From contig JAQTXZ010000001.1 in assembly GCA_028688515.1 (NCBI GenBank), forward strand, positions 434,001-498,000: a DNA stretch of 64,000 nucleotides, written 5' to 3'. Positions within the stretch are counted from its first letter, which is position 1; each line of letters opens with the position of its first letter. The notes beneath the pieces were generated by a model. That model was not told the DNA's origin. It searched no databases and saw only the letters and a program-made list of their open reading frames with translations. Positions 2,682 through 61,206 of the stretch are shown piece after piece. This stretch comes from Patescibacteria group bacterium. Its GTDB lineage: Bacteria; Patescibacteriota; Patescibacteriia; 2-12-FULL-60-25. The position numbers and the translations under genes are program-made.

Positions 2682-3608
2682 CTACAACCACCTTTTACGT
2701 TTAAAGAAAACTATCATCAGCGCGGCGATGGCGATAATTATTCCTGATAAAATCCAAAAACCGTAAGGATTATCGACAATCGGCATGCCTGCGGCGCGCG
2801 TGGCGAACAAAGTCGCGAACAGAGTCAAAGGAAAAGTAGTGACCGAAATGATGGTCAGTGTTTTCATGATGTCGTTGGTTTGATAATCCAAAAGCGAGAC
2901 ATTTGTTTCGTGCAATGCGTCGATTGTATTTTTTTGCAGATCAAGACGATCCCAAATGTCTTTTGTCTCTTCGACTAACTTGTCAAAGTATTCTTGCAAT
3001 TTATCCACGCTGACAAACCTTCCGCGCGAGGCGGCTACCAATTTGCGGATAACAGCTTTGTGTCCCTGGATTGCTTTGCGGACACTGACGATGTTCGTTT
3101 TGACGCGAAGAAGTTCCTTTATCAAACTGCGTTCAAAATTTTTGAACAATTTGCTTTCTATGTCCTCCACATCAACTGTCATGTGCCTGATCATCGGATA
3201 TATTGCTTCGATCAAAGTCTCCAAAATTACGAATAGCAGTTGCGGGACATCATGCGCATGCTGGAGTTCGCCGCCTTCAAATTTGTTGTACAAATCTTGC
3301 AACTGCGGCAGACCAAAAGGATCCACAACAACAAGACGGTTTGGTTCGATGAAAAAATCGATTTCTGCCGTAGAGATGATACGGGTCTTTCTATCAAAAA
3401 CGGGGTAAAGCAAGATCATGAACAAATAATCCTCGCGTACGGCTAGTTTTGTGGATTGCAGCGGAGGGGCAGTATCCGCCAAATCCATTTCATGATATTT
3501 AAAATCCCGCTTTAAAGCGGCCAAGGTTTTTTTGTCGTTATTATTAACCATCACCCATTCTACAAAATGGCGTCTGGTTTTTGGCAGCCTTAATGTCTTT
3601 GGCGGCAT
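2682..3608 (-). CDS. corA: CorA-family divalent cation channel
   Basis: A 308-residue protein with the CorA plan: a soluble N-terminal alpha/beta domain, a long helical stalk (about 130-240) and two C-terminal membrane helices (about 250-272 and 281-302) followed by the basic tail KRKRWL. The family normally moves Mg2+ or Co2+ through a pentameric pore. The GMN signature at the end of the first membrane helix is replaced by AGMP, so selectivity is uncertain. The ATG is 6 nt after a perfect TATAAT, suggesting a leaderless message. It is transcribed alone, divergently from the gene at 3740. Confidence 0.88.
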   Translation of the reverse strand: MPPKTLRLPKTRRHFVEWVMVNNNDKKTLAALKRDFKYHEMDLADTAPPLQSTKLAVREDYLFMILLYPVFDRKTRIISTAEIDFFIEPNRLVVVDPFGLPQLQDLYNKFEGGELQHAHDVPQLLFVILETLIEAIYPMIRHMTVDVEDIESKLFKNFERSLIKELLRVKTNIVSVRKAIQGHKAVIRKLVAASRGRFVSVDKLQEYFDKLVEETKDIWDRLDLQKNTIDALHETNVSLLDYQTNDIMKTLTIISVTTFPLTLFATLFATRAAGMPIVDNPYGFWILSGIIIAIAALMIVFFKRKRWL

Positions 3609-3614
3609 GTCGAC

Positions 3615-3620
3615 ATTATA
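3615..3620 (-). promoter_or_regulatory. -10 box of corA, leaderless spacing
   Basis: TATAAT on the minus strand ends 6 nt before the corA ATG, so transcription would start at or next to the start codon. No clear -35 box is present. Confidence 0.55.
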
Positions 3621-14659: not shown

Positions 14660-15283
14660 TCAGAGAGGGACGCCAATCAAGAAGCCGGTGCGCGCTCTCC
14701 ACTGGTCCATCTGCCGCGAGTCAGCAAAGCCGACGCCGACAAACGGGATGACGGAGACCTTGCCCTTGCCTGGGATCAGGAATGACGGGCCAAACCTGAT
14801 GTCTGCGTCGTACTGACCCGCGTTGGCATCGCTGCCGCTAAAGTTCCAGCTCGCTGGGTAGTAGTCGTGAGCTCCGAAGACTGTGATACCAACGGGATCG
14901 GGCACAGTACCGACAAGCCAGCGCATGCGGACTGAAGCTGATTTGGTTTCTGCGTTGGCTCCTGCGCCGCCGTTAAGCCTGAACCCCAGTGGGCCGGCTG
15001 TCCAGCGGAGCATAAGGTAGCCGTCGCCGTCCAAGCCGAACTTCTGCACCGGCGGCAGGGGATGGTACACGCCTCCGAATGCGCCTATACCGAATCCATC
15101 AGTGCCGCGCGAGCAGCCGACGAACGGACCGGAGACGGAGTAGAACATGCCGACCACCGAGCATCCCGTTGTCACCAACGGTGCCTCTTTGGGCTCATTT
15201 GGAGGCTCGTCCGCGCGGACGGCCGAGGCGGCAAGGACCAGAAACGACAAAACGATGAGTGTGAAAATGCTCTTGAACTTCAT
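14660..15283 (-). CDS. Secreted glycine-rich protein of unknown function
   Basis: 207 residues with a clear Sec signal peptide (basic MKFK, hydrophobic core to about 20, then AVRADE as a likely signal peptidase I site). The mature part is rich in Gly, Phe, Val and Pro with alternating patterns (FGIGAFGGVYHP, VIPFVGVGFADS), which suggests beta structure; an outer-surface or barrel-like protein is possible but unproven. The family is not recognised. GGAAGGAG precedes the ATG, unlike the housekeeping genes, and the gene has its own promoter and terminator. Confidence 0.7.
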   Translation of the reverse strand: MKFKSIFTLIVLSFLVLAASAVRADEPPNEPKEAPLVTTGCSVVGMFYSVSGPFVGCSRGTDGFGIGAFGGVYHPLPPVQKFGLDGDGYLMLRWTAGPLGFRLNGGAGANAETKSASVRMRWLVGTVPDPVGITVFGAHDYYPASWNFSGSDANAGQYDADIRFGPSFLIPGKGKVSVIPFVGVGFADSRQMDQWRARTGFLIGVPL

Positions 15284-15357: not shown

Positions 15358-15366
15358 TGCTATAAT
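15358..15366 (+). promoter_or_regulatory. pgi: Extended -10 promoter of pgi, leaderless spacing
   Basis: TGCTATAAT ends 6 nt before the pgi ATG, so the message would begin at or next to the start codon. Confidence 0.6.
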
Positions 15367-15372
15367 GTCTTT

Positions 15373-16671
15373 ATGCATTTAACCTATTTAGACGCCAACA
15401 TGCGCGCAGACCTTTCTGCGACTGAAAAAATCAGCCCGCAAGTTTTGCGCGAGGCGCACGAGGCCGTGGTGCAGCTGCATGAGGAAAAGGAGCAGGGTTG
15501 GCTGGATGTTTTGGATGATGCGGAGTATTTGCAATCAATAAACTCTGCGGTCAAACAATTTTCAAAATACAAAAATTGCCTGGTCATCGGCATCGGCGGC
15601 TCCGACCTCGGCACCCGCGCCTTGCTCGAGGCATTGCAACGTGCGACGTGCGACGTGCGACGTGCGACGACTCTTTGGTTCTCCGGCGACACAACCGACC
15701 CCGAGGCAATCGCGGCGGTTTTAGACGAGATACCGTGGAAGCAGACGTGCATTAACATCATCAGCAAATCAGGCGGAACGCTGGAGACGATGTCCGTATT
15801 TTTTGAAGCAAAACGCAGGCTCGAGAAGGCTGTTGGCGCAAAGCAAGCAGCAGCCAGGATCATCTGCACGACAGATTCGGAAAAGGGGACGCTTAGGGAA
15901 ATGGCGCAGGGCAAGGGGTATGCAACGCTGACCGTGCCGGAAAATATTGGCGGCAGATTTTCTGTTTTAACGGCTGTCGGACTTTTTCCGCTGGCGCTGG
16001 CGGGAGTCAACACCAAAGATTTGCTGAAAGGCGCGATAGAGATGCGCGATGATTGGCTTGAGGCGCCCGGAGCATCGCATCCGGCGGACAGATTTGCGGC
16101 ATGGCAGGCTGCGCACGAAATGCGCAAGCACAGAAACATTCACGTGCTGTTTACGTACGCATCTTATTTGCGCGGAATATCAAACTGGTGGAGACAGCTT
16201 TGGGCGGAATCTTTGGGCAAAGCGCAGCTTTTAAACGGCAGGCCGAACGTTTACGGCCCAACTCCAGTCGCATCCATCGGCCCCACGGATCAACACTCGC
16301 AGATGCAGCTTTATCACGAAGGTCCTGACAATAAAATCTTTACTTTCATCACCGTAGATAATTTGCGCGCAAAACTTAAAGTGCCGACAAGCGCAAAAAA
16401 TTATGAATTAACAGCTTACATGTCCGGTCTGTCTTTTGCGGAGCTGCTAAATGCCGAAGCGACCGGTTCCATACAAGCGCTGGCAGAGGCGGATCGCCCT
16501 GTCGGTCAAATCAAGCTAAACAAGATAGATGCGCAAGCGCTCGGATCGCTGATTTGTTTTTTTGAGATAGCAACCGCAGTGGCCGGGCAACTGTACGGCA
16601 TCAACGCGTTTGACCAGCCCGGCGTGGAAGCATCCAAGAAAAAGACCAAGGAGATCTTGGCAAAAATCTAA
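15373..16671 (+). CDS. pgi: Glucose-6-phosphate isomerase
   Basis: Interconverts glucose-6-phosphate and fructose-6-phosphate. The two SIS-type sugar phosphate sites are visible as IGIGGSDLGTRALLEAL (about 73-89) and SKSGGTLETMS, followed by the active-site block GPTDQHSQMQLYHEGP. The length of 432 residues fits the short bacterial type. A four-fold tandem repeat of GTGCGAC (15641-15668) sits inside the gene and encodes ATCDVRRAT right after the first motif. The gene stands alone with an extended -10 promoter. Confidence 0.95.
   Translation: MHLTYLDANMRADLSATEKISPQVLREAHEAVVQLHEEKEQGWLDVLDDAEYLQSINSAVKQFSKYKNCLVIGIGGSDLGTRALLEALQRATCDVRRATTLWFSGDTTDPEAIAAVLDEIPWKQTCINIISKSGGTLETMSVFFEAKRRLEKAVGAKQAAARIICTTDSEKGTLREMAQGKGYATLTVPENIGGRFSVLTAVGLFPLALAGVNTKDLLKGAIEMRDDWLEAPGASHPADRFAAWQAAHEMRKHRNIHVLFTYASYLRGISNWWRQLWAESLGKAQLLNGRPNVYGPTPVASIGPTDQHSQMQLYHEGPDNKIFTFITVDNLRAKLKVPTSAKNYELTAYMSGLSFAELLNAEATGSIQALAEADRPVGQIKLNKIDAQALGSLICFFEIATAVAGQLYGINAFDQPGVEASKKKTKEILAKI
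15641..15668 (+). repeat. Tandem 7-mer (GTGCGAC)x4 inside pgi
   Basis: Four perfect copies of a 7-bp unit lie in the coding region of pgi. Because 7 is not a multiple of 3, a gain or loss of one unit would shift the frame. Confidence 0.9.
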
Positions 16672-17291: not shown

Positions 17292-19958
17292 TTACTCAAC
17301 AACGACCTTCTCCAATTTTTTGTAAACTATCTTGCCGGCTTTAACGCCTACTTCCACCGTATCATTTTCTTTTACCTCGCTTTCGATGATCTTTAACGAC
17401 AAGTCATCGAGCACAAGATCTTGAATGGCGCGTTTCAGCGGTCTGGCGCCGTAAGCCGGGTCGTAGCCTTTTTCTGCAAGCAGGGTTTTGGCCTCGTCGC
17501 TAAAATTGACGTTGATTTTTTTATCTTCCAAACGCTTGACGACGTCTTTGAGTTGCAAGTCGACGATCTCGCGCAGATCTTCTTTCGACAAAGCGTGGAA
17601 GACGATCGTTTCGTCTATTCTGTTCAAGAACTCGGGACGGAAAGCATCGCGCAAAAGTTCCATAATCTTATCCTTTATGCCGGTTTCGTCTTTTTCTTTG
17701 CTGCGCGACTTTGAGCCTTCGGTAAAACCGATGACATTGGATTTTGTGCCGTAATCCAAAATCATATCGGATCCGATGTTGGAAGTCATGATGATAACGG
17801 CATTCTTAAAACTGACCGTACGTCCTTTGCCATCCGTCATGCGGCCGTCGTCCAAAACCTGCAAAAGAGTATTGAAGACTTCGGGATGCGCTTTTTCCAC
17901 TTCGTCGAGCAAGACAACGGAGTAGGGTTGACGACGAATCTTATCGGTAAGCTGTCCGCCTTCTTCGTAGCCGACATAGCCCGGCGGAGAACCGATCATA
18001 CGCGAAACTGCGTGGCGCTCGCCGTATTCACTCATGTCAAGACGGATGATGGCATTTTCATCGTCAAACATTGATTCTGCCAAAGCTTTGGCCAACTCTG
18101 TTTTGCCGACTCCGGTTGGCCCGAGGAACAAGAAAGATCCGATTGGGCGCTTGGGTTCGGAAAGACCGGCCCTGGAACGTCTTATGGCGTTCGCCACGGC
18201 GTGGACCGCTTCTTTTTGACCGACTACGCGCTTGGCAAGTTCCGCCTCCAAATTGGCCAGTTTTTTGGCTTCGCTCTCCAACATGCGGGAGACCGGGATA
18301 TGCGTCCAACGGCTGACAACGCCGGCGACATCCTCTTCCGTAACGGCGTCGCGCAACAGACCGCGCTTGCCTTGCAACTGTTTGAGCTTGTGTTCCAAAC
18401 GCTTAAGCTCTTTTTCTTTTTCCGGCAATTGACCGTATCTTATTTCCGAAACCTGTTCCAAATCTCCTCGGCGTTCCGCGATTTCAGCCTGACTCTTAAG
18501 CTTCTCGACCTCTTGTTTGGCAACTCGACTGGCAGTCAAAACTTCTTTCTCGGCTTTCCATGCCAACTCCAATTCGTCAGACTTTTCGCGGATTTCAGAA
18601 AGATGCTTGTCCAAAACCTTAAGACGATCTTTGGAATCTTTATCTTCCTCTTTAACCAAAGTGCGCTTTTCGATCTCAAGTTTAATCATCTCGCGCTTTA
18701 ATTTATCCAACTCTTCGGGCATCGATCCTATTTGCATACAAAGACCAGAAGCGGCCTCGTCGATAAGATCGACGGCTTTGTCAGGCAAAAATCTGTCTGT
18801 GATGTAACGCACCGAAAGTTTGACGGACGAAATCAAAGCCGCGTCCGTGATGCGTACGCCGTGATGCAGCTCGTACTTGTCTTTTATGCCGCGTAAAATC
18901 GCGATTGCATCTTCCTCGTTTGGTTCTTCAACCATGATCGGCTGGAAGCGACGTTCGAGAGCAGCATCTTTTTCGATATAACGTCTGTACTCTTTGACTG
19001 TCGTTGCGCCGACAGCTCTTAGTTCGCCACGCGCCAAGGTCGGTTTGAGCAGATTCGACGCATCCATTGAACCGCCTTCTCCCGTTGCGCCTGCGCCGAC
19101 CAAAGTATGGAGTTCGTCGATAAACAAGATGACTTTTCCATGACTGTCTTGAACTTCTTTGAGCAAAGCTTTCAATCTTTCTTCAAATTCACCGCGAAAC
19201 TTTGTGCCCGCAACCAAGGCGCCGAGATCAAGAGAGACCACATCTTTGTCGCGTAGCGTATCAGGTACGTCGCCCGCAACGATGCGTTGAGCCAAACCTT
19301 CCACAATGGCAGTCTTTCCAACGCCCGCTTCGCCGATAAGCACGGGATTGTTTTTCGTCCTGCGTGTTAAGACTTGCATGACGCGGCGGATCTCTTCATC
19401 GCGGCCGATAACAGGATCCAATTTTTCCTGCCTGGCAAGCTCAGTTAGATTGCGCGAATACTTTGCCAAAGCTTGGTACTTTGATTCGGGTTCCGGAGAA
19501 TCAACCGTCACGTTGCCGCGAAGATCTTTAAGCGCGGCCAGCACGGCGTCAACAACAACGCCTTGTTTGTTTAAAATCGCACCGACTTCGGTTGGCGAAT
19601 CCGCAAGAGCCATAAACAAATGCTCGGTTGAAATATATTCATCTTTAAAGAATTGCGCGGCCTTTTCGGACTGCACGATAACTTTTGCCAGTTCTTGGCT
19701 AAAATAGATTTGCCCGACGTTACCGATGGACGAAGACACCTTTGGAATATGCTGCAATAAAAATTCCAAATCGGCATGCAACCGCGACGCATCAACCTGC
19801 AGTTTTTTGAGTAAAGAGGGGACGACGCTGCCTTCCTGCGCAAGCAAAGCCAACGCCAAATGCACAGGCTCCAGCGCCTGCTGTCCGTTTTCTTGAGCTA
19901 TCTGATGAGCCAGCTGAAGGGCTTCTTGGCTCTTTGTGGTAAAATTTTGTGGCATCAT
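17292..19958 (-). CDS. clpB: ATP-dependent chaperone ClpB
   Basis: Hsp100 disaggregase that works with DnaK to rescue aggregated protein. Domains in order: Clp N-domain (about 5-145), AAA1 with Walker A GEAGVGKT and Walker [12 protein letters not shown], a middle coiled coil (about 400-525), AAA2 with GPTGVGKT and [12 protein letters not shown], and the C-terminal D2-small domain. The length of 888 residues is normal. There is no ClpP-docking IGF loop, consistent with ClpB rather than ClpA/C. The start has two ATG codons in a row (19958 and 19955). A perfect CIRCE element lies between the promoter and the start, so HrcA repression with heat induction is expected. Confidence 0.97.
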
Positions 19959-19964
19959 ACTTGG

Positions 19965-19991
19965 TTAGCACTCTAAGCATGAGAGTGCTAA
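19965..19991. promoter_or_regulatory. CIRCE operator (HrcA binding site)
   Basis: TTAGCACTC, 9 bp, GAGTGCTAA is an exact match to the CIRCE consensus. It lies directly after the clpB -10 box and 6 bp before the start codon. The hrcA gene itself is not in this window. Confidence 0.95.
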
Positions 19992-21737: not shown

Positions 21738-22502
21738 TTATTGTTTCGTAATGTAAGCGACGTTGCCGCAAGTTACGGATTGATCTGGCTTTATCTTGCA
21801 AACACGATAATACGTTTTGCCGGATTTAAGATCTTTGTCCGTCCAAGAACGCGTATCTAAGCTGGTGATCGCTTTAAACCAAAACACTTTAGGAAAGTAA
21901 AGCGATGGATCGGTTTCTGACTTTACCAAGACGTAAGATTGAAAAGGCTCTACTGCTTTTCCCCAGCTCAATTCTGCGCCGTACTGAGATTGGGAAATCG
22001 TTAAATGCATTTCGGTGTCCGAAAAACTCACCGGTACGGAGCTGTCTGCCGCTTTTGGCGTCACTGCTAAATCGGTCGTGCCGGGTAATCGCTTGTCCGA
22101 ATTGATTTTGTTGTTCGTCTTTGATTTTTCGTCATCAGTCTTTAATCCTTGGTCTTTTGTCGTGACCTGTTCTGCGACCTTATCGACAACAATCGTCATC
22201 GTCGAAGTCACGATGCCGTTGCCGACGGAGAGAGGAAATTCGTTTTTACCTTCTTTAATGTCGAGTTCAATGTCGAACTTTCCATCTTTGACCTCGTTCT
22301 GCGTTTCGCCGAGATATACAACATTCGCATCTGTTTCGCCGATGGCATTAAGCTTTGAAGCAGTTGTCGTGGAATACAAACCCGGCGACAACAGATTTAA
22401 AGTCGGAGTTTTTGGAGTCAATCTTGTTTGCGGCGTTTGCGACGCACACCCGGCGCCCAAAAGCGCCATCAAACTCAAAGCCAAAATAAACGGTTTTTGC
22501 AT
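21738..22502 (-). CDS. Lipoprotein with a fibronectin-III-like C-terminal domain
   Basis: 254 residues. The N-terminus MQKPFILALSLMALLGAGC has a textbook lipobox with C19 as the lipidated residue. A beta-rich segment with FDIELDIKEGKNEFPL follows, then a low-complexity linker (about 135-165). The C-terminal ~90 residues look like an FnIII or similar Ig-type domain (LTISQSQYGAELSWGK to GKTYYRVCKI). The open frame continues upstream to 22709, but that extension is encoded by the MITE-like element, so the start at 22502 is right. No precise family is recognised. Confidence 0.75.
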   Translation of the reverse strand: MQKPFILALSLMALLGAGCASQTPQTRLTPKTPTLNLLSPGLYSTTTASKLNAIGETDANVVYLGETQNEVKDGKFDIELDIKEGKNEFPLSVGNGIVTSTMTIVVDKVAEQVTTKDQGLKTDDEKSKTNNKINSDKRLPGTTDLAVTPKAADSSVPVSFSDTEMHLTISQSQYGAELSWGKAVEPFQSYVLVKSETDPSLYFPKVFWFKAITSLDTRSWTDKDLKSGKTYYRVCKIKPDQSVTCGNVAYITKQ

Positions 22503-22529
22503 GAGGTTATTATAGCATAAGAGTTGATA

Positions 22530-25134: not shown

Positions 25135-26088
25135 ATGCTCATCAGCGACCGACTTTACGGAAGTTTTAACATCGACGAGCCGGTGTTGGTCGAACTTATA
25201 AACTCGCGGGCAGTTCAGCGTTTAAAAGGCATCGCGCAACTTGGAATCCCGGACGAGTTTTACAGCGTCAAAAGTTTTTCACGTTACGAACATTCAGTCG
25301 GCGTCATGCTGCTGTTGCGACGCTTGGGTGCAAACGAGGAAGAACAAATCGCCGGATTGCTGCACGATGCGTCTCACACAGCCTTTTCGCATGTGATTGA
25401 TTGGGTGGTCAAAGAAAACGGAAGCGAGGATAATTATCAAGACAATCATCATCTCGAATATCTGCTAAAAACAGAACTGCCATCCATTTTGGAGCGTTAC
25501 GGATATGACATAAACAATATCGCAGATTATGATCGTTTCGGTTTGCTTGAAAGGGACATGCCGGATCTATGTGCAGATAGAGTGGATTATGGTTTGCGCG
25601 AGTTTGACGAGACAAGCGCAGCGATTTGTTTAAAAAGCCTGAAGACTCAAAAACGCCGCATTGTCTTCAGTGACATCAAGGCCGCAAAATTGTTTGCTGT
25701 AAATTTCTTGGATCGTACGGAAAATAATTGGGCGAGCATGGAAGCCGTAAATCGCTACCGCTACTTTAGCGAAGCTTTGCGCATAGCGGTCAAACTCGAT
25801 CAAATAAGCATGGAAGATTTTTGGCAAGATGATACTTTTGTTTTTGAAAAATTAAAAAGATGCAATGACGCGAGAATTGTCAAAATTTTAAACCAATTGC
25901 AAATTCTTTCTTGGGATAATCTACCAAAAGACGGTTTGATCCATGTCCTCAAGTTCCGTCACGTAGATCCGCTCATCATAATTGAAGGCGATTTGCATCG
26001 TTTAAGTGAAGTTGATATTGAATTTAAACGGGATTTGGAAGAGGCACGTGTAAGATGTTCGTCCGGTGTACCGAAAATAACGATTTAA
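25135..26088 (+). CDS. HD-domain phosphohydrolase (dNTPase/SAMHD1-like)
   Basis: 317 residues from ATG 25135; the longer frame from 25093 overlaps the previous gene. The HD signature is complete: RYEHSVG (H53), GLLHDASHTAFSH (H77, D78) and a later DRVDYGL for the last metal ligand. This arrangement is that of the dGTPase/SAMHD1-like branch, which removes triphosphate from dNTPs or acts on other nucleotides. It is translationally close to the HExxH gene (1 bp) and 3 bp before the second deoxyribosyltransferase-like gene, so a nucleotide-related pathway is likely. Confidence 0.8.
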   Translation: MLISDRLYGSFNIDEPVLVELINSRAVQRLKGIAQLGIPDEFYSVKSFSRYEHSVGVMLLLRRLGANEEEQIAGLLHDASHTAFSHVIDWVVKENGSEDNYQDNHHLEYLLKTELPSILERYGYDINNIADYDRFGLLERDMPDLCADRVDYGLREFDETSAAICLKSLKTQKRRIVFSDIKAAKLFAVNFLDRTENNWASMEAVNRYRYFSEALRIAVKLDQISMEDFWQDDTFVFEKLKRCNDARIVKILNQLQILSWDNLPKDGLIHVLKFRHVDPLIIIEGDLHRLSEVDIEFKRDLEEARVRCSSGVPKITI

Positions 26089-26595: not shown

Positions 26596-26600
26596 GTTTA

Positions 26601-26629
26601 TGGACAAAACGACTATTTTGACTTATTCT
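26601..26629 (+). promoter_or_regulatory. Promoter of metG, leaderless spacing
   Basis: TGGACA (26601-26606), 17 bp, TATTCT (26624-26629), then 6 nt to the ATG at 26636. Confidence 0.5.
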
Positions 26630-26635
26630 TTGACC

Positions 26636-28279
26636 ATGAAAAACAAATTTTACGTAACAACTCCAATCTATTACGTCAACGACAAACCGCATATCGGTTC
26701 GACTTATACGACCGTTGTGGCGGATGCTTTGGCGCGAGCGCATCGCTTACGCGGAGTACCGACGATGTTTTTGACGGGCACGGATGAGAACAGCCAAAAA
26801 AACGTCGAGGCCGCGGAAAAAGCGGGGGAGAAAGATTTGCAAAAATATTTGGACAGCATGGCGCAAATCTGGTCGCAAACATGGAAGGAGCTTGGAATCA
26901 GCTTCGATGATTTTATACGCACGACAGAGGAGCGCCATCACAAAGCGGTTGAAAGATTTTGGAAGGCAGTAGAAAAATCCGGCGATATTTATAAAAAAGA
27001 ATACGAACGTTCTTACTGCGTCGGTTGTGAAGAGTTTAAAACTCCATTCGAGGTCAAGGACGGCCGCTGTCCGTTGCATCCAAACAAAGAATTGCAAATC
27101 GTGCAGGAAGAAAATTATTTTTTTCGCGCATCGGCTTACAAAGACGAACTGCTTAAACTCTATCATGAACATCCGGAATTCATTCAGCCTGTCAGCAGGC
27201 TGAATGAAACGCGCAATTACGTTAAAGACGCATTTGAAGATTTTTCCATTTCGCGCGAAGCCAAAAAACTTTCGTGCGGCATTCCGGTGCCCGGTGATGA
27301 TTCGCAGCGCATTTATGTTTGGTTTGACGCGCTTATCAACTACATGTCCGCGGTCGGTTACGGCACGGACGACAAAATGTTTGCCAAGTGGTGGCCCGCG
27401 ACTTTACATCTTGTGGGAAAAGACATCATCAAGTTTCACTGCGCCCTTTGGCCTGCGATGATAATGAGCGCCGCCAAGTCTGACGAGCTACTTCGCAATG
27501 AAGATGAAAGTCCAAAACTTCCGGAACATGTTTTCGCGCATGGCTTTTTCACCATCAACGGACAAAAAATCAGCAAATCGCTGGGCAATGCCATTGATCC
27601 GCTGGATTTGGTCAAAGAATATCCAATAGACGCAATTCGTTACTTTTTGTTGCGCGAAATTACTTTTGGCGAAGACGGAGACTTCTCGCTTGCTCGTCTA
27701 GCCGAACGCTATAACGCCGATCTAGGCAACACCTTCGGTAACCTCGTCAACCGCGCCATCTCGATGAGCAGAAAATACTTCGACAATAAAGTGCCATCTC
27801 TTGCTTCCGGCATTGAATCGACATTCGATATTCAGCGTAGCGGACATTCAGCGCAGCAGACATTTGATGGTCCTATTTCCTGGGGCGGCAAAGATGCAGT
27901 CGACACGCTCTGGCAATCAGTTGACCAGTACATCGAGTCAAACAGACTCGATCTTGCACTTGAGACAATCTGGGGAGGGGAAGGTTGCTCGCTCATCGTC
28001 GCCAACAGACTCGTCGAAGAGACTAAGCCATTCAAACTCATCAAAGAAAACCCCGAACAAGCCGCCATTGTCTTATACACGTTGCTGGAAGCTTGTCGTC
28101 ATTTTGCATGGATGATCGAGCCTATAATGCCAAACATCGCAGAAGAAATCATACGACAGCTTGGCCAAGACCCAATTGCCGAACGCAAACAGGGGATTAA
28201 ATACCTCCAATCCTGGGGCGGCCTCAAACCCGGTTCTGAACTGCCTGAACCTAAGATTTTGTTTCCGAGGAATGCATAA
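26636..28279 (+). CDS. metG: Methionyl-tRNA synthetase
   Basis: Class I synthetase that charges tRNA-Met. HIGH-type motif PHIGSTYT, one zinc knuckle (CVGCEEF and CPLHP), the family block IYVWFDALINY and the KMSKS-type NGQKISKS are all present. ATG 26636 gives the normal start MKNKFYVTTPIYYVN; the frame open from 26600 covers the promoter. The 547 residues lack a C-terminal tRNA-binding EMAP domain. Between SLASGIES and the following anticodon-binding helices there is an insert encoded by the spacer repeat TTCGATATTCAGCGTAGC (27819-27868). Confidence 0.96.
   Translation: MKNKFYVTTPIYYVNDKPHIGSTYTTVVADALARAHRLRGVPTMFLTGTDENSQKNVEAAEKAGEKDLQKYLDSMAQIWSQTWKELGISFDDFIRTTEERHHKAVERFWKAVEKSGDIYKKEYERSYCVGCEEFKTPFEVKDGRCPLHPNKELQIVQEENYFFRASAYKDELLKLYHEHPEFIQPVSRLNETRNYVKDAFEDFSISREAKKLSCGIPVPGDDSQRIYVWFDALINYMSAVGYGTDDKMFAKWWPATLHLVGKDIIKFHCALWPAMIMSAAKSDELLRNEDESPKLPEHVFAHGFFTINGQKISKSLGNAIDPLDLVKEYPIDAIRYFLLREITFGEDGDFSLARLAERYNADLGNTFGNLVNRAISMSRKYFDNKVPSLASGIESTFDIQRSGHSAQQTFDGPISWGGKDAVDTLWQSVDQYIESNRLDLALETIWGGEGCSLIVANRLVEETKPFKLIKENPEQAAIVLYTLLEACRHFAWMIEPIMPNIAEEIIRQLGQDPIAERKQGIKYLQSWGGLKPGSELPEPKILFPRNA
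27819..27868 (+). repeat. In-frame copy of the ATATTCAGCG spacer repeat inside metG
   Basis: At least 28 consecutive bases starting TCGATATTCAGCG are identical to the intergenic spacer before atpD (35691 onward). Here the repeat is read as [16 protein letters not shown]. Confidence 0.9.
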
Positions 28280-41542: not shown

Positions 41543-42799
41543 ATGCACAGGAGGAACAAAATAATGACGGTATTTGCCTGCATTGGACTGATTGCCGGTC
41601 AATTTTATTATGCGCCTAAAGCCAAAGCGGCAAGCGAAGCAAAAAATTTAGCCGACCAAACACAAGAGCTCAATCAAGATCTGAGCAACAAACGTTCGAG
41701 AGTCCAGGAGCTGGAAGGTCTGATCAATTCTTACAAAGACAAAATAAAAGCCCAGGCGTCACAGGAGGTTACGCTTAGCAATCAAATTCTATTATTGGAT
41801 AATCAAGTACGCGAGAAAGAACTTACCCTTGAGTCAACCAAAGCTCAGATCGATGTTCTGGATGCAGAGATAGATCTTTTGGACACTAACATCAAAGGGC
41901 GCGAAACAAAGATCGATCTGCAAAAGAGCATGATAGCGGACTTGGTTAATAAAATAAGGCAGGCCGATGATATTGATACGTTGCAAGTTTTTTTAAGCAA
42001 ACCTTCGCTTTCTTCGTATTTTGATAGAATTGAAGAGCTGAAAAGCCTGCAAGGCGATTTGGGTCAAACATTGGAAGGAGTAAAAAACGATAAAGTCGTA
42101 TTGGAAGCAGATAAAACAAGCCGTCAAGACAAACTGGAGCAATTGGAAGAACGTAAAAATCGAATTAAAGAAGAAGCTCTGCGAGTAGAGATGGAAAAAA
42201 ATTCTAAAATCTCGCTGCTCGCGGAAACGCAGAACAAGCAGGCGGAGTTTGATCGCGTTGTCAACGAATTGCGCCAGCAAAACGAGGCCACGACTGATGA
42301 AATCGCAGACATTGAAAAATCCTTAAAAGATAAGCTGGATGCAATAGACAGAGCCCTGGCCAGCGGACAAACGCTTTTGCTTTGGCCGGTGCCGGTACGC
42401 AAAATAACCGTTTATTTTCACGACCCGACATATCCTTTCAAATACCTATTTCAGCATCCGGGCATAGATTTGAGGGCGGACGTGGGCACTCCGATCAAAG
42501 CGGCCGCCGGAGGATACGTAGCCTGGACAAAAACCGGTCAATCATACGGTAACTACATCATGATCGTGCATCCGGGTAACCTGGCTACGGTTTATGCGCA
42601 TCTCACAAGATTTAAAGTTAAAGCCGGCACCTATGTCGAAAGAGGGGACGTGATAGGATTTACGGGCGGAATGCCCGGTATGCAGGGAGCCGGTCTTTCT
42701 ACCGGTCCGCATCTTCACTTTGAAGTTCGCCAAGACGGCATACCGGTAGACCCGATGGGATTTTTGCCAGAGGCGATACAAACAGATAATTTGAAGTAG
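41543..42799 (+). CDS. Coiled-coil M23 peptidase (EnvC/NlpD-like murein hydrolase or activator)
   Basis: 418 residues. An N-terminal hydrophobic segment with the processing-like site KAKAAS suggests export. Residues about 35-265 form a long coiled coil. The C-terminal M23 domain has the zinc ligands in HPGIDLRAD, VYAHLTRF and HLHFEV, so it may be an active endopeptidase rather than a degenerate activator. Two starts compete: ATG 41543 and ATG 41564, the latter 9 nt after AGGAGG; the former keeps the basic residues before the hydrophobic segment. It starts 4 bp after gltX. Confidence 0.87.
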   Translation: MHRRNKIMTVFACIGLIAGQFYYAPKAKAASEAKNLADQTQELNQDLSNKRSRVQELEGLINSYKDKIKAQASQEVTLSNQILLLDNQVREKELTLESTKAQIDVLDAEIDLLDTNIKGRETKIDLQKSMIADLVNKIRQADDIDTLQVFLSKPSLSSYFDRIEELKSLQGDLGQTLEGVKNDKVVLEADKTSRQDKLEQLEERKNRIKEEALRVEMEKNSKISLLAETQNKQAEFDRVVNELRQQNEATTDEIADIEKSLKDKLDAIDRALASGQTLLLWPVPVRKITVYFHDPTYPFKYLFQHPGIDLRADVGTPIKAAAGGYVAWTKTGQSYGNYIMIVHPGNLATVYAHLTRFKVKAGTYVERGDVIGFTGGMPGMQGAGLSTGPHLHFEVRQDGIPVDPMGFLPEAIQTDNLK

Positions 42800-51081: not shown

Positions 51082-51090
51082 TGCTATAAT
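51082..51090 (+). promoter_or_regulatory. Extended -10 promoter of tspO, leaderless spacing
   Basis: TGCTATAAT ends 6 nt before the tspO ATG. Confidence 0.6.
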
Positions 51091-51096
51091 ACATGC

Positions 51097-51573
51097 ATGA
51101 AGTTCTCTAATCTCGCCAAGCTGATTTCCACGATTCTTATCTGCGAACTAGCAGGTGTGATTGGAGCAGTATTTACAACGTCATCCATAGGTGGTTGGTA
51201 TTCCGGTCTAATCAAGCCTGACTTTTCTCCACCAAACTGGATATTCGGTCCAGTCTGGACAACATTGTACTTCCTCATGGGCGTTGCTGCGTACCTAATC
51301 TGGAACAAGGGCTTGAATCGCAAGAGCGTAAAAATCGCACTCAGCTTCTTCATCGCCCAACTTATTTTGAATATTTTTTGGTCAATCATATTCTTTGGCC
51401 TGCATTCACCTGGCGGAGCCATGATTGAAATCGTCTTTCTTTGGCTAACCATTCTCGCCACGATCATTACCTTTTATAAAATCTTTCGTCCGGCCGCCTG
51501 GCTCTTGGTGCCATATATTCTTTGGGTAAGCTTTGCCGGGTACCTTAATTATTCAATTTGGATTTTGAATTAA
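51097..51573 (+). CDS. tspO: TspO/MBR family tryptophan-rich sensory protein
   Basis: 158 residues with five membrane helices. Family blocks: WYSGLIKPDFSPPNWIFGPVW near the N-terminus, the NIFWSIIFFGLH segment, and the C-terminal PYILWVSFAGYLNYSIWILN. TspO proteins bind porphyrins and cholesterol-like ligands and affect stress responses; the ligand here is unknown. Monocistronic with a leaderless-type promoter. Confidence 0.92.
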   Translation: MKFSNLAKLISTILICELAGVIGAVFTTSSIGGWYSGLIKPDFSPPNWIFGPVWTTLYFLMGVAAYLIWNKGLNRKSVKIALSFFIAQLILNIFWSIIFFGLHSPGGAMIEIVFLWLTILATIITFYKIFRPAAWLLVPYILWVSFAGYLNYSIWILN

Positions 51574-54491: not shown

Positions 54492-54524
54492 TCTTTATTC
54501 CAATTTTCATGGTAACCTGCAAGT

Positions 54525-55010
54525 ATGTCCGACAAGCTTACTGCAAACAAAAAAGACTCCGGCAAGCATTATTTTGATCGCCCATTGGGTTTGGTTTTGA
54601 TCGTCTTCTATAAAGCCATCTGGGGATTTTTGGAAACACTTTTAGGTATTTTTATTTTTTATTCCTACAGATTGGTTACCAATGAGTTGATGGAAGATCC
54701 GCAAGATCTATTGGCGAATTGGATAATCTCGCATTTTCATGTAACACAATCAACCGCAGCGGCAGGGTCAATTGTATTCGCGCTGGGACTGGTTAAAATG
54801 ATTTTGGCTGCAGCAATCTGGCTGCGATATAAGTTCGTCAGAGAGCTGGGAATCATCTTTTTTTCATTAATCGCGCTGTACGGCGCGTACCACAGCATGC
54901 TGAGTTTTTCGTGGTTTACTTACTTCGCCCTGGTCATCGACCTTGTTGCGCTGGCCTATTTTATCTTTGAGCTCCCAAAGCATCTCAAGAAGAGCGGGAT
55001 ATTTGAATAA
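54525..55010 (+). CDS. DUF2127-like membrane protein
   Basis: 161 residues with four membrane helices. DRPLGLVLIVFYKAIWGFLE and EDPQDLLANWIISHF are typical of the DUF2127 family, whose function is unknown. A TGGTAACCT extended -10 (54510-54518) ends 6 nt before the ATG, again the leaderless spacing. Confidence 0.75.
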   Translation: MSDKLTANKKDSGKHYFDRPLGLVLIVFYKAIWGFLETLLGIFIFYSYRLVTNELMEDPQDLLANWIISHFHVTQSTAAAGSIVFALGLVKMILAAAIWLRYKFVRELGIIFFSLIALYGAYHSMLSFSWFTYFALVIDLVALAYFIFELPKHLKKSGIFE

Positions 55011-55794: not shown

Positions 55795-56838
55795 ATGAAA
55801 GACAACGTGCTGTACCGCCTGTATCGGAAGACGAGTGAGACGACCGAAACCTGTTTCTACGTTGAATGCAACAAGCCAATGAGCGACGCGGAGTATGCAA
55901 CTCTGCGTTGGCTACTAGCCGAGACGTACGAGCAGGACAGACTGCGGGCTGACAGCTGGCTCGCGAACAAGGGAAGAGTACGCGAAGTCGGCCCCAGGCT
56001 GAACTTCGCCACGCCCTTCTCGACCAACGCCACCTCCATCTGCCACGCAATCGGTCTGCATTCCGTGACTCGTCTTGAGCGATCGCGGGTAATGGTCAGC
56101 AACGACGTTCCGGCTCACGACCGCATGACAGAGATGGTCTATCCGGTTACTCTCAAGAGTTTTGACGAGGACAAGGAACCGGCCAAGGTCTTCACAATCC
56201 CATTGCTCGAAAGGGGACCGGACGCGCTGCGCGAGTTCAACCGCGAGATGGGTCTGGCCATGGACGCGACTGACATCGACTACTGCTACAACCTGTTCGT
56301 AAACGGCATGGGCAGAAACCCGACCAACGTCGAGGTGATGCAGGCTGGAGTTGCAAACTCCGAGCACTGCAGACACTGGGTCTTTAACGCCAAAATCAGG
56401 AATCGATGGCGAAGAGATGCCGCACACTCTGTTCCAGTTGGTCAAGGCTCCACTCAAGGAGCATTCCGACGGATCCATGATTGCCTTCTCCGACAACTCC
56501 AGTGCCATCGAAGGCTGGGAGCAGACGGTTCTGATACCGAGCAAGCCGGGCACGATGTGCGCATTCACTGCGTACGAGGGGAATTACTGCATCCTATTCA
56601 CTGCGGAGACACACAACTTCCCAACCGGCATTGCACCCTTCCCGGGTGCAGAGACAGGAACAGGAGGCCGCATTCGCGACGTACAAGCAACAGGCCGCGG
56701 AGGGCTGGTTGTTGCCGCGACGACAGGGTATTGCGTGGCAGGCCTGAACTTCGGCGACTACACAATCCCGGGCACCGACGACTCGTTCGTCTATCCCGTG
56801 ACACTGGCCTCACCGCTCGACATTCTGATCCAGGGTAG
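55795..56838 (+). CDS. purL: purL, 5' part before the frameshift (FGAM synthase N-terminus)
   Basis: Residues 1 to about 200 are the N-terminal PurS-like and linker part of the long-form phosphoribosylformylglycinamidine synthase, up to NSEHCRHWVFNAKI. From about 56396 the frame no longer resembles PurL and runs on to 56838 without meaning. The family then continues in the +1 frame (GIDGEEMPHTLFQLVK). Removing one A from AAAA (56392-56395) gives FNAKSGIDGEE, the same length as E. coli FNADWIIDGE. GGGAGG precedes the start. Confidence 0.8.
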   Translation: MKDNVLYRLYRKTSETTETCFYVECNKPMSDAEYATLRWLLAETYEQDRLRADSWLANKGRVREVGPRLNFATPFSTNATSICHAIGLHSVTRLERSRVMVSNDVPAHDRMTEMVYPVTLKSFDEDKEPAKVFTIPLLERGPDALREFNREMGLAMDATDIDYCYNLFVNGMGRNPTNVEVMQAGVANSEHCRHWVFNAKIRNRWRRDAAHSVPVGQGSTQGAFRRIHDCLLRQLQCHRRLGADGSDTEQAGHDVRIHCVRGELLHPIHCGDTQLPNRHCTLPGCRDRNRRPHSRRTSNRPRRAGCCRDDRVLRGRPELRRLHNPGHRRLVRLSRDTGLTARHSDPG

Positions 56839-59665
56839 CAACGGCGCCTCGGACTATGGTAACAAATTCGGCGAACCTGTGATCACGGGCTTTTGCCGTA
56901 ACTTTGACCTTCGCGTTTATGACAGAAAGGAACGACGCGCCTGGCTTAAGCCCATCCTCTTTACCGGAGGCATCGGCTTGATCCTGCAGATGCATTGCTC
57001 CAAACACGGAGCGGACGTAGGCATGCTGATCGTTCAGATCGGCGGGCCGGCCTACAGAATCGGCATGGGCGGAGGTTCTGCCTCGTCCATGATTCAGGGT
57101 GCGAACAATGTCGAATTAGACTTTAACGCGGTGCAACGCGGTGATGCCGAGATGGGACGAAAAGGAGATCGCGTCATTCGCGCTTGCATCGAGATGGGAG
57201 TAAGCAATCCCATCGAGAGCATCCACGATCAAGGCGCTGGCGGGCCGTGCAACGTGTTGACCGAGTTGGTCAATCCTGCAGGCGGAAGAATCGAGATCCG
57301 CAACATCGTCAGCGGAGACAAAACACTTTCCGTGGCAGAACTTTGGCTGGCCGAGTACCAGGAACGCAACGGTCTGCTCATCCGCCCGGAGAATCTTGAG
57401 CTGTTCCAGGCGATCTGCCGCAGAGAGCGAGTCAACTGCGAAGTGCTGGGCACGATCACCGATGACGGCAAAATCGTTCTTCATGACGCTCAGGATGACA
57501 GCGATCCGGTCAATCTGGAGCTGGCCAAGATCCTGGGCAGGCTTCCGCAGAAGACGTTTGAGTCAGCGCGGTTTGACTACAAACTCGAACCGTTGCGCAT
57601 TCCAGAAATGACCCTGCTGGAGCTTACGGAGCTGACTTTCAGTCAACTATCCGTCGGTTCCAAAGGCTTCTTGGTCCACAAGGTCGACAGAAGTGTGACA
57701 GGACTGGTGGCACAACAGCAATGTTGCGGACCGTTCCAGTTGCCGGTTTGCGACGTGGCGGTCATTGCAGGCAACACGCTTTCTCCCAGGCCACCCGGCG
57801 CGGCGACTGCGATTGGCGAGCAACCAATCAAGATGCTAATCAACAGAGCGGCCGGCGCACGTATGGCTGTCGCCGAAGCCGTCACCAACATCGCTGCGGC
57901 ATACATTGACGGGGGACTTTGGAAGATTAAGTGCTCGGCCAACGAGATGTGGGCGGCCAAGCAGCCCTGCGAGTTCGCTGGTTTGTACGACGCGGTCAAG
58001 ACAATGTCTGACTTCATGTGCGAGATTGGAATCGCTATCGACGGCGGCAAAGACAGCCTTTCCATGGCTGCCAAAGTCGACGACGAGACGGTTAAGGCAC
58101 CCGGGCAAATCGTCGTCTCGCTTTACGCAACGATGACGGATGCGACACTCGTTGCAACTCCGGATATCAAGTACCCGGGGAACAGTGCACTGGTACTCAT
58201 CCAGCTGAATGAGAAGATGCGCCTCGGCGGATCAGCTCTGGCACAGGCTCTTGGACAGCTTGGCGATGAATCACCTGACGTGGAAAGTTCCAGGCTATTG
58301 ATCAGAGCCTTCCAAAGCGTACAGACGCTCATCAAAAACGGCGTGGTCAAGGCCTGCCACGACCGCAGCGACGGAGGGTTGGTGGCAACAGTCGCCGAGA
58401 TGATCATGTCCGCCGGATGTGGGTGCGAACTCAGGGCTTGGGCCAACGGCAACGACCCGGTAGCCTGGCTCTTCAACGAAGAAATCGGAATCGTAATTGA
58501 GTGCTTTGAGCGAGATTTGGAGAGCAAGAACTTTTTGTCCACCATCACAAGTTATGGTTTGCATTGCACTGTCATCGGCAGAACGACGTACGAGCGCAAA
58601 ATGGTCGTCAAGGACGCTTCCGGTGAGGTACTGCTCGACATTCCCACTTCGCGACTGCGTGACATGTGGGAAAGGACGAGCGACGAGATCGAGAAGCGGC
58701 AGATGAACCCCGAATGTGCCCAGGCACAGATCGAAACGCGCCGAACACACCTGCAGGTTCCGGCGTATCGCCTGACTTACAATCCGATTCAGTCGCTGCC
58801 GTATGAGTACTTGGACTACCATCCGAAAGTCGCGATTGTTCGCGAGGAGGGGAGCAACGGCGATCGCGAGATGGCCGCGGCTTTCCATCTTGCGGGATTC
58901 GAAGTCTGGGACATGACGATGACCGATTTACTTGAAGGCGACCCGGACATGCTCGACGATTTCCGCGGCATCGCCTTTGTCGGCGGATTCTCGTACGCCG
59001 ATGCACTCGACAGCGCCAAAGGTTGGGCCAGCGTCATCCGTTTCAATCCCAAACTGCGCGACATGTTCGCTCGATTCTTTGCCCGCGAAGACACCTTCTC
59101 GCTCGGCGTGTGCAACGGTTGTCAGCTAATGACGCTTCTCGGCATCGTGCCTTGGCGTGATATCGGCGACAGACTGCAGCCGCGTTTCGTGCACAACGCC
59201 TCCGGCCGATTCGAGTCGCGCTGGGTGATGGTGCGCATCGTAAACAGTCGGGCGATGATGCTTAAAGGCATGGAGGGTTCCATCCTTGGCATTCCCGTCG
59301 CACACGGCGAAGGCAGACTCTTTTGCCCGGACCCGCAGATTCTGAAAGAAGCTCGCAAGCAATCGCTTACGCCGATCGTCTACGTCGACGATATCGGCGA
59401 TTCGACCGAGCTCTATCCGTTCAACCCGAACGGCTCACCGGGCGGAATCACTGCCCTATGCGACCCGTCGGGCAGGCACCTCGCCATGATGCCTCACCCA
59501 GAACGCGCTTTCTGGATGTGGCAATGGCACTACGTGCCGGAGTTCATGAAGGTGCTGCAAGCATCTCCATGGATGCGCATGTTCCAGAACGCGTACGAGT
59601 GGTGCAGGACAACCAGACAACTCGTTGAAGTCGTAGCCGACGACAACTACGATGACATCGACTAA
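56351..59665 (+). CDS. purL: purL, main part after the frameshift (FGAM synthase)
   Basis: Fourth step of purine synthesis: FGAR + Gln + ATP to FGAM. After the shift the sequence carries IAFSDNSSAIEG, TAETHNFPTGIAPFPGAETGTGGRIRD, a second ATP-grasp-like half with DGGKDSLSMAAK, and the C-terminal glutaminase with nucleophile GVCNGCQLMTLLG and the HPER triad part. The full fused length would be about 1289 residues, normal for long-form PurL. All catalytic parts look intact, so the break is either recent, an assembly error, or suppressed. No other purine gene is in the window. Translation restarting at the nominal ATG 56351 is unlikely. Confidence 0.9.
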   Translation: MQTPSTADTGSLTPKSGIDGEEMPHTLFQLVKAPLKEHSDGSMIAFSDNSSAIEGWEQTVLIPSKPGTMCAFTAYEGNYCILFTAETHNFPTGIAPFPGAETGTGGRIRDVQATGRGGLVVAATTGYCVAGLNFGDYTIPGTDDSFVYPVTLASPLDILIQGSNGASDYGNKFGEPVITGFCRNFDLRVYDRKERRAWLKPILFTGGIGLILQMHCSKHGADVGMLIVQIGGPAYRIGMGGGSASSMIQGANNVELDFNAVQRGDAEMGRKGDRVIRACIEMGVSNPIESIHDQGAGGPCNVLTELVNPAGGRIEIRNIVSGDKTLSVAELWLAEYQERNGLLIRPENLELFQAICRRERVNCEVLGTITDDGKIVLHDAQDDSDPVNLELAKILGRLPQKTFESARFDYKLEPLRIPEMTLLELTELTFSQLSVGSKGFLVHKVDRSVTGLVAQQQCCGPFQLPVCDVAVIAGNTLSPRPPGAATAIGEQPIKMLINRAAGARMAVAEAVTNIAAAYIDGGLWKIKCSANEMWAAKQPCEFAGLYDAVKTMSDFMCEIGIAIDGGKDSLSMAAKVDDETVKAPGQIVVSLYATMTDATLVATPDIKYPGNSALVLIQLNEKMRLGGSALAQALGQLGDESPDVESSRLLIRAFQSVQTLIKNGVVKACHDRSDGGLVATVAEMIMSAGCGCELRAWANGNDPVAWLFNEEIGIVIECFERDLESKNFLSTITSYGLHCTVIGRTTYERKMVVKDASGEVLLDIPTSRLRDMWERTSDEIEKRQMNPECAQAQIETRRTHLQVPAYRLTYNPIQSLPYEYLDYHPKVAIVREEGSNGDREMAAAFHLAGFEVWDMTMTDLLEGDPDMLDDFRGIAFVGGFSYADALDSAKGWASVIRFNPKLRDMFARFFAREDTFSLGVCNGCQLMTLLGIVPWRDIGDRLQPRFVHNASGRFESRWVMVRIVNSRAMMLKGMEGSILGIPVAHGEGRLFCPDPQILKEARKQSLTPIVYVDDIGDSTELYPFNPNGSPGGITALCDPSGRHLAMMPHPERAFWMWQWHYVPEFMKVLQASPWMRMFQNAYEWCRTTRQLVEVVADDNYDDID

Positions 59666-59691
59666 CACTGGACAGGCTCACTGTCCACCCC

Positions 59692-59719
59692 GCGGCACTC
59701 ACTCGAGTGCCGCTTTTTT
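59692..59719 (+). terminator. Terminator of purL
   Basis: GCGGCACTC and GAGTGCCGC pair perfectly around ACTC, followed by six T. Confidence 0.92.
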
Positions 59720-59813
59720 GTTACCTCCCCCGAGGGAGAGACGAGGAGAGGGGAGTTGACCAATCAAGTGCGGTATGCAAAAATTTTTCCGACACTCAAC
59801 CACGGAGGATCAC

Positions 59814-60569
59814 ATGAGCCACCCGCACCTTAGCAAAGAACTCAATCAGCTCATTGAGTACTCGATGAAATACGACGACATGCAGCTCGGCGAGATTCTA
59901 GAAATTACTGCCACCGATGTCGTGTGGGGCGAACCCAAGACGCTTCGCGTGCAGATCGTCGGATTTCAGAAACTGAAGGAAAAACATACTCCTGTCTTCC
60001 GTTTCCTGAACTGCGACGTCAACTTGGCCGGCAACGACAAAAGTACGCCTGTGCGTCCGCAGAAAGGAACTCTCGCGGGAGCCGGCGTTGCCTGCACGCA
60101 CCTGCCGCAAATGGTCTGGAATATGGTGGGACTCGGAGGTATCGACATAGGACGAGATTACTCCTTCGAGTATCTCGACGGAAGAGAAGAGTTTGTTTAC
60201 GTCCACCATATCATTCGCGTCGAACGCCTGCCGCGGCCCGAGAAATGGCGAGAGGCAAAGACCGTGGCGCAGAGGTATATACGGAAGGTAGCTCATATAC
60301 GAGCTACCCTTGAGAAGAAACGCAAGGCTTTCGACAAGAGGCTTCTGCAAGCGGTTGAAATCAAGACCGCAAATTCCATCTACCGATTCGAATCTGCGGG
60401 TCAGGATGGGTTGCGCAAGATGGCCAAGGTTGGTACTGGCGTGCTGTACACGGATGTTCGCATCATCTCAGCCCACGTAGGCGGGTCGTTGGTAGCCGAT
60501 GTACAGATTAACGGCAGACGACAGACGATGGAGTCCAGTAAAATCGTCGCCATTGAATTCGCTTCCTAG
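59814..60569 (+). CDS. Standalone hypothetical protein (251 aa)
   Basis: 251 residues, soluble, no signal. A beta-rich N-terminal part (LGEILEITATDVVWGEPKTLRVQIVGFQKL) is followed by FEYLDGREEFVYVHHIIRVERLP and a basic helix (about 145-180). GGAGG lies 6 nt before ATG 59814; the frame also opens at 59775 but without a ribosome site. No family recognised. It follows purL as a separate unit with a look-alike terminator. Confidence 0.65.
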   Translation: MSHPHLSKELNQLIEYSMKYDDMQLGEILEITATDVVWGEPKTLRVQIVGFQKLKEKHTPVFRFLNCDVNLAGNDKSTPVRPQKGTLAGAGVACTHLPQMVWNMVGLGGIDIGRDYSFEYLDGREEFVYVHHIIRVERLPRPEKWREAKTVAQRYIRKVAHIRATLEKKRKAFDKRLLQAVEIKTANSIYRFESAGQDGLRKMAKVGTGVLYTDVRIISAHVGGSLVADVQINGRRQTMESSKIVAIEFAS

Positions 60570-60598: not shown

Positions 60599-60627
60599 TT
60601 GGCAAAATTTCATCAATCAAGTAAAAT
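60599..60627 (+). promoter_or_regulatory. Promoter of the 60634 lipoprotein, leaderless spacing
   Basis: TTGGCA, 17 bp, TAAAAT, then 6 nt to the ATG. Confidence 0.6.
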
Positions 60628-60633
60628 ATATTT

Positions 60634-61206
60634 ATGCAAAAACAATTTTCAAAAACTTTGATGCTCATGCTTATCCTGGCATCTTTGGGCGCAGGATGCA
60701 GTAGCCAAAATATTTCAAAAAATTCTTCCGTAGACGTATCAAGATCCGGAAAGTCTTACGATCCTTGCGAATTGATTACTTTGGCTGACTTTTCTGCGGA
60801 TTTTCCAAATCAGACTTTGACTCAAGACAAACATGATACGACTGCAAATGCAGTTGGGCAGAAAATCTGTTTTTACGGTTCAAAAGACGACATGTATTTT
60901 GTTCAGCTTTCGATCATCAGCAACGACGATATACCCGCATCAAAACAAGCGAATGGTTTAACGGCACAAAGCCAATATGAACAAATCCTGTCCATGATCG
61001 CCGGGGCGAATTCTGTCGATGGGATAGGGGATGGCGCATATTACGCCGGCAGCGGCTTGCGGATAGGACGCGGTTTAAGCGTTTTGGACAACGCTCACGG
61101 AGTCTACTTTACAATCGACATCGGACTTGGAGTCGGTAATGACGATCAGGCCAAACATTTGACCATGGAAAAAAATCTGGCGCAGAAAGTACTTGAGCGG
61201 CTGTAA
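60634..61206 (+). CDS. Lipoprotein (DUF3558-like)
   Basis: 190 residues. Lipobox in MLILASLGAGC with C22. The mature part begins with a Ser/Asn linker and has DPCELITLADFSADF and ICFYG, the two-cysteine pattern of DUF3558-type lipoproteins. Function unknown. It ends 3 bp before the MazF-like gene. Confidence 0.72.
   Translation: MQKQFSKTLMLMLILASLGAGCSSQNISKNSSVDVSRSGKSYDPCELITLADFSADFPNQTLTQDKHDTTANAVGQKICFYGSKDDMYFVQLSIISNDDIPASKQANGLTAQSQYEQILSMIAGANSVDGIGDGAYYAGSGLRIGRGLSVLDNAHGVYFTIDIGLGVGNDDQAKHLTMEKNLAQKVLERL

Follow-up and report, generated by a model that had tools for sequence, protein, structure and literature searches.

Promoter-like boxes next to start codons and sparse Shine-Dalgarno sites in a Patescibacteria genome

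Boxed genes and contrasting starts in the window

The window, i.e. the whole stretch of 64,000 nucleotides analysed here (G000:C4:434001-498000), belongs to the genome of an uncultured dwarf bacterium of the Patescibacteria (1,286,638 bases, 99% complete, GC ~48%). Directly ahead of pgi it carries an extended -10 box that ends 6 nt before the ATG. The first-pass annotation of this DNA had quoted a box at the same distance for six genes (pgi, tspO, corA, metG, a lipoprotein gene at 60634 and a DUF2127 gene), and all six were found to be correct to the letter, each 6 nt from its ATG, the weakest being the TAACCT of the DUF2127 gene. A seventh case, absent from that annotation, precedes the minus-strand lipoprotein-like gene 21738-22502 (hexamer 22509-22514). 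The boxed genes and, for contrast, three genes led by a Shine-Dalgarno (SD) sequence are the following:

15358..15375, plus strand: pgi promoter-start; extended -10 TGC-TATAAT 15358-15366, 6-nt spacer, ATG 15373-15375 as predicted transcription start
15373..16671, plus strand: pgi coding sequence; Pfam PGI
3606..3620, minus strand: corA; TATAAT 3615-3620, 6-nt spacer, ATG 3608-3606; Pfam CorA
22500..22517, minus strand: box region of the lipoprotein-like gene 21738-22502; TGC-TATAAT 22517-22509, 6-nt spacer, ATG
26601..26638, plus strand: metG; TGGACA 26601-26606, 17 nt, TATTCT 26624-26629, 6-nt spacer, ATG 26636; Pfam methionyl-tRNA synthetase
51082..51099, plus strand: tspO; TGC-TATAAT 51082-51090, 6-nt spacer, ATG 51097; Pfam TspO
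54510..54527, plus strand: DUF2127 gene; TGG-TAACCT 54510-54518, 6-nt spacer, ATG 54525; Pfam DUF2127
60599..60636, plus strand: lipoprotein-like gene; TTGGCA 60599-60604, 17 nt, TAAAAT 60622-60627, 6-nt spacer, ATG 60634; no match in a Pfam search
14660..15283, minus strand: accessory gene, divergent from pgi; SD ggaaggagacctggcc before the ATG
41564..42799, plus strand: M23 peptidase gene; strong SD (aggagg)
59814..60569, plus strand: accessory gene; SD (ggagg)

Since the SD-led gene at 14660..15283 is divergent from the boxed pgi, one intergenic region holds both start types. In the case of metG the coding-potential caller picked a longer frame starting at 26600. As metG was searched for and not found in the sampled loci of relatives, solved MetRS structures were used for comparison. 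In 16 of 18 matches their chains align from residues 11-16 of the 26600 frame onwards, in favour of the start at 26636 given in the first-pass annotation.

The window furthermore contains a GC-rich island (56000-60000; GC 0.567 vs ~0.46) with a 1,104-aa open frame beside an SD-led gene. An inverted repeat, TTAGCACTC-N9-GAGTGCTAA (19965-19991), stops 6 nt short of the ClpB start codon (clpB 17292-19958, minus strand) and is presumably CIRCE-like.

Position and composition of the boxes across the genome

Gene calling relied solely on coding potential and covered 777,036 of the 1,286,638 bases (~60% of the genome), so that upstream motifs were unable to steer the called starts of the resulting 603 genes. 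A gene was regarded as unit-leading if it was divergent or followed the preceding gene on the same strand at a distance of 30 nt or more (n=441). A strict box was defined as a TA...T hexamer that differs from TATAAT by no more than one base, and the gap as the number of nucleotides between hexamer and start codon. Strict boxes were detected at 59 of the 441 leading genes, namely 28 at gap 6, 5 at gap 7, 20 at gap 8 and 6 at gap 9, on a background of 1.9 per position on average (gaps 13-39; p ~3e-23 for gap 6). All 59 genes start with ATG, compared with 412 of the 441 leading genes overall. In the whole genome the exact TATAAT-N6-ATG occurs 38 times, the reversed pattern 7 times and the N12 form 10 times. 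These counts bear out the genome-wide enrichment of the 6-nt spacing predicted by the first-pass annotation. Gap 6 puts the first T of the box at -12, as in the leaderless (TA-led) class of genes.

Given that a GC content of ~48% makes TANNNT common, chance or base composition might be held responsible for the boxes. However, no such peak was found with scrambled hexamers, reversed patterns, other gaps, on the opposite strand or at in-frame internal Met codons (n=3,876), where a strict box occurs 5 times at gap 6 and 3 times at gap 8. In addition, the leading genes were divided into a discovery half (220 genes) and a held-out half (221 genes), and boxes with any one mismatch were counted separately in each. 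The counts at gap 6 were 12 in the discovery half and 18 in the held-out half, those at gap 8 17 and 9, respectively. The repeated gap-6 excess refutes chance, the probability of which we consider practically nil. The same script applied to 200 kb of E. coli (109 leading and 46 internal genes) revealed a strict box at 0/109 starts at each of gaps 6-9 and detected the four-base SD core in 54/109 leading and 33/46 internal genes. The subset of genes with a single possible start, with a gap-6 box in 1 of 37, is too small to help.

Start calling is imperfect, as seen at metG, and the boxes might therefore be ordinary -10 elements of genes whose true start codons lie downstream, which would result in normal leaders. 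Against this, the peaks are tied to the called ATG and absent at internal ATGs, several ortholog pairs begin together at residue 1, and N-terminal homology backs the boxed metG start. Downstream starts thus appear to be a very improbable explanation.

The sequence context of the boxes is summarised as follows. At gap 6 a pyrimidine directly precedes the ATG in 27 of 28 genes, and at gap 8 16 of 20 genes have a purine as the seventh base behind the box and 18 of 20 a T at -1. The extension TGN was found ahead of 17 of the 28 gap-6 boxes vs 24 of 192 boxes located farther upstream. Counted in 10-nt bins from the start codon, extended boxes number 33, 6, 3, 5, 2, 1, 3, 2 and so forth, compared with 2, 2, 1, 0, 1 and so forth on the opposite strand. 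Hence, of the extended -10 boxes that can be recognised within 150 nt, the majority sit at the start codon. The mean -35 match is barely higher than in control boxes (2.97/6 vs 2.66/6).

The promoters are presumably of the sigma-70 type, mostly with an extended -10 element (TGN-TATAAT), and RNA polymerase would start on the seventh nucleotide downstream of the box. With a gap of 6 nt this position coincides with the A of the ATG, which would yield a leaderless mRNA, and with a gap of 8 nt it holds a purine that directly precedes a U, which would leave a 2-nt leader (R-U-AUG). One rule, a start on the purine seventh after the box, would therefore cover both gap 6 and gap 8. The scarcity of gap 7 may be explained by the fact that the starting purine would fall on -1, against the strong habit of this genome to place a pyrimidine there. 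Messages of this kind would have no room for an SD, and box and SD were never detected in the same gene (59 box genes and 35 SD genes among the 441). Their AUG would be recognised at the 5' end, probably by 70S ribosomes, which are known to read other leaderless mRNAs.

Alternatively, the AT-rich hexamer could act in translation as an AU-rich contact site of the ribosome or of bS1 without any promoter function. SD sequences are rare in the genome, a bS1-like protein with four S1 domains is encoded (L147, G000:C4 near 868.4-869.4 kb), and an AU-rich upstream bias has been discussed as Pribnow box or S1 site (PMC5397173). However, the boxes show a promoter register, the TGN extension and the purine rules of a start site, and they are weak at operon-internal starts (strict box at gap 6 4/121, at gap 8 1/121), where the need for a translation element would be greatest. 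It seems very improbable that such an element accounts for the boxes. Taking spacer bases, extended -10 elements and orthologs (see below) together, the data fit a transcription start on the AUG or 2 nt before it. Leaderless or near-leaderless mRNA from promoters set by the start codon is very probably the best explanation, with the promoter layout established by sequence statistics and the transcription starts predicted from the spacer signature.

The looser box TANNNT was counted at gaps 6-9 as an estimate of the share of such genes. It was present in 114 of the 441 leading genes, compared with 35 on average in the control windows, and in 45 of the 122 divergent genes vs ~10. By these excess counts leaderless starts make up roughly 18-29%, or between about one fifth and one third, of the unit-leading genes. 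The true share is probably underestimated in this way, as weak boxes and wrongly placed starts escape detection. The proposal that leaderless initiation is a main route in this organism thus holds in so far as it is a prominent route, but it does not extend to most genes.

Shine-Dalgarno use and the case of rpsU

The 3' tail of the 16S rRNA (GGATCACCTCCTTTCT), the inspection of which had been suggested together with the leaderless proposal, contains an intact anti-SD. Nevertheless, an SD core (GGAGG or AGGAG) was detected in only 35/441 leading and 1/121 operon-internal genes. The separately counted four-base core shows a less than 2-fold excess in leading genes (58/441 vs 31/441 in the control) and remains below the control in operon-internal genes (7/121 vs 16/121). 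Among translation-related genes an SD of -9 kcal/mol or stronger was found in 3 of 33 (rpsU, rpsJ, rplB), the starts of rpoA, rpsK and rpsE being uncertain. Operon-internal starts are often located 1-5 nt past the upstream stop codon or overlap it as ATGA (e.g. window positions 25135, 26092, 32574 and 61210), and 74% of them have a U at -1 vs 13% in E. coli. The lack of SD sites in housekeeping genes, formerly taken as support for leaderless initiation, was thus confirmed. It is no sign of a leaderless start by itself, however, because operon-internal genes, which are unable to be leaderless on a polycistronic mRNA, are SD-less as well. At least three start types may coexist: leaderless starts of unit-leading genes, SD-less U-AUG starts including the operon-internal ones, and a small SD-led set consisting of accessory genes and rpsU.

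The SD-led genes differ from the box genes in their median GC3 (0.664 vs 0.506), and 26 of the 35 have a C at -1. Outside the window, the leading genes with 100 codons or more comprise 29 that are SD-led, 53 with a box and 294 others. From each group 20 genes were sampled for Pfam searches, which gave matches for 6, 12 and 15 of the 20, respectively. A match in the same-genus sample was obtained for 4 of 39 SD-led genes vs 217 of the 603 genes overall. The SD is found mainly on GC3-rich accessory genes with few known domains, plus rpsU, and these accessory genes look like acquired or fast-evolving ones. One of them (L041:12401-13423) contains sigma-70 regions 2 and 4 and may encode an extra sigma factor. 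Two others (L013:7859 and L013:9867) share a near-identical upstream stretch of 45 nt including the SD, which may indicate a recent duplication or a mobile unit.

The rpsU gene encoding bS21 (G000:C4:87712-87951; L023:7712-7951; L146) is preceded by the extended SD AGAAAGGAG, 9 bases of which are complementary to the genome's own 16S end. With -13.6 kcal/mol it ranks fifth among 582 starts, and no other housekeeping gene was recognised among the ten strongest SDs, part of which belong to genes without annotation. The gene was found in 27 of 30 loci (missing in G022, G023 and G027), and its SD reaches -12.5 kcal/mol or stronger in 23 of the 27 genomes parsed, own included, the four without a strong SD at the chosen start being G037, G024, G036 and G010. 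For rpsR a strong SD was detected in none of the 12 loci parsed out of 19. In a wider draw from the phylum (28 of 29 further loci located; loci from 30 of 50 matching genomes, own included) the rpsU SD reached -12 kcal/mol or stronger in 16 of 28, taken at the ATG (else the first) start, although many of these genomes may use SD sequences generally.

It is conceivable, if rather unlikely, that this lineage keeps its anti-SD from general initiation and reserves it for few messages. Chief among these would be rpsU, whose extended SD would let bS21-free ribosomes make more bS21, and other housekeeping starts would be leaderless or of the U(-1)-AUG type. Pairing of the U(-1) with position A37 of the initiator tRNA would then be possible, as would reinitiation a few nucleotides past the upstream stop codon. 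If true, the SD-led accessory genes would form a separate bS21-sensitive set, and SD avoidance with rpsU autoregulation would have had a second origin outside the Bacteroidota. The conserved extended SD of rpsU provides a specific and testable claim of convergent bS21 control. Position 54 of bS21 is presumably not a tyrosine here.

Conservation in the phylum and comparison with known systems

The orthologs were compared in 177 best-hit pairs with one same-genus genome. In six pairs the gaps were 8/8, 8/8, 9/9, 6/6, 9/8 and 6/8, and the genes with a kept or nearly kept spacing are located at L040:7034, L028:5549, L007:12131, L038:4487, L030:14476 and L014:16775. Several other pairs share no box, mostly where gene order or called start differs. 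Conservation of the pgi promoter itself was mostly not borne out: the start of pgi could be read in 7 same-genus relatives, none of which has such a box and in which pgi often lies close behind another stop codon, and in a more distant relative (L052) TATACT was found 6 nt before the start.

In 145 genomes of the phylum TATAAT-N6-ATG occurs 3,395 times. The N12 form, counted in the same genomes because the reversed pattern makes an imperfect control, occurs 1,388 times. Of the two counts, that for gap 6 is the higher in 129 of the 145 genomes and the lower in 11. Some relatives show little or no signal (e.g. no exact TATAAT-N6-ATG hit in G010). The R-U-AUG form was counted 461 times vs 162 times reversed in 115 genomes of the class. 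The highest number in the 145-genome draw, 124 exact gap-6 hits with 10 reversed ones in ~0.7 Mb, comes from a member of the Patescibacteria outside the class (G235; L192-L207), in which an SD was found in 20 of 61 operon-internal genes. The pattern is real and common in the phylum.

Patescibacteria account for a very large share of bacterial diversity, most of it uncultured, and the choice of start codons by their ribosomes has been little studied. If most of their housekeeping genes start without an SD, gene callers that rely on it will misplace starts, and expression tools must rest on the spacing between -10 box and AUG. The interest lies in the combination of leaderless promoters, SD-free operons and the extended SD of rpsU.

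No paper on leaderless or SD initiation in Patescibacteria/CPR was found in the open-access literature searched by titles and abstract starts. PMC6851277 matched this topic through its reference list only, and the term 'Patescibacteria' is absent from the main text of PMC12340547. The leaderless promoters described here are ordinary in kind and, as far as searched, newly documented for the phylum. Leaderless genes with a -10 box adjacent to the ORF are known from Actinobacteria, Deinococcus-Thermus and others (PMC3160421, PMC12340547).

In the RefSeq genomes of 2010, Zheng et al. 2011 described TA-led bacterial genes, in which a Pribnow-like TANNNT signal ~12 bp before the start stands for a missing or very short leader (PMC3160421). 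The Patescibacteria boxes resemble these in the type of signal and its distance and differ in having two sharply defined registers, at 6 nt and at 8 nt, as well as in the SD-less operon-internal genes. In Deinococcus-Thermus a -10 motif few bp before the ORF, found at ~30% of the ORFs, has been shown to drive leaderless transcription (PMC12340547). It likewise adjoins the ORF, whereas the boxes described here are TATAAT-like and extended, and the SD of housekeeping genes is nearly gone. In Mycobacterium leaderless mRNAs make up a large fraction and occur side by side with SD-led ones (PMC3898074). In contrast, the operon-internal genes of the genome studied here lack the SD, and it is G235 that shows a Mycobacterium-like mix.

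With regard to rpsU, the closest parallel is found in the Bacteroidia, where bS21 helps to hide the anti-SD and therefore autoregulates its synthesis through an extended SD on rpsU (PMC9976891). In this system the anti-SD is held in a pocket of the 30S platform and residue Tyr54 of bS21 acts on it, a residue that the Chlorobia lack (PMC9976891). The genome studied here shares with the Bacteroidia the intact anti-SD, the absence of SD sequences from most genes and the extended SD before rpsU (below about -13 kcal/mol in the Bacteroidia). Unlike in the Bacteroidia, some accessory genes as well as rpsJ and rplB are also SD-led. As far as searched there is no earlier report of this parallel, which is a resemblance known from sequence alone and may point to a similar role of the rpsU extended SD in both groups.
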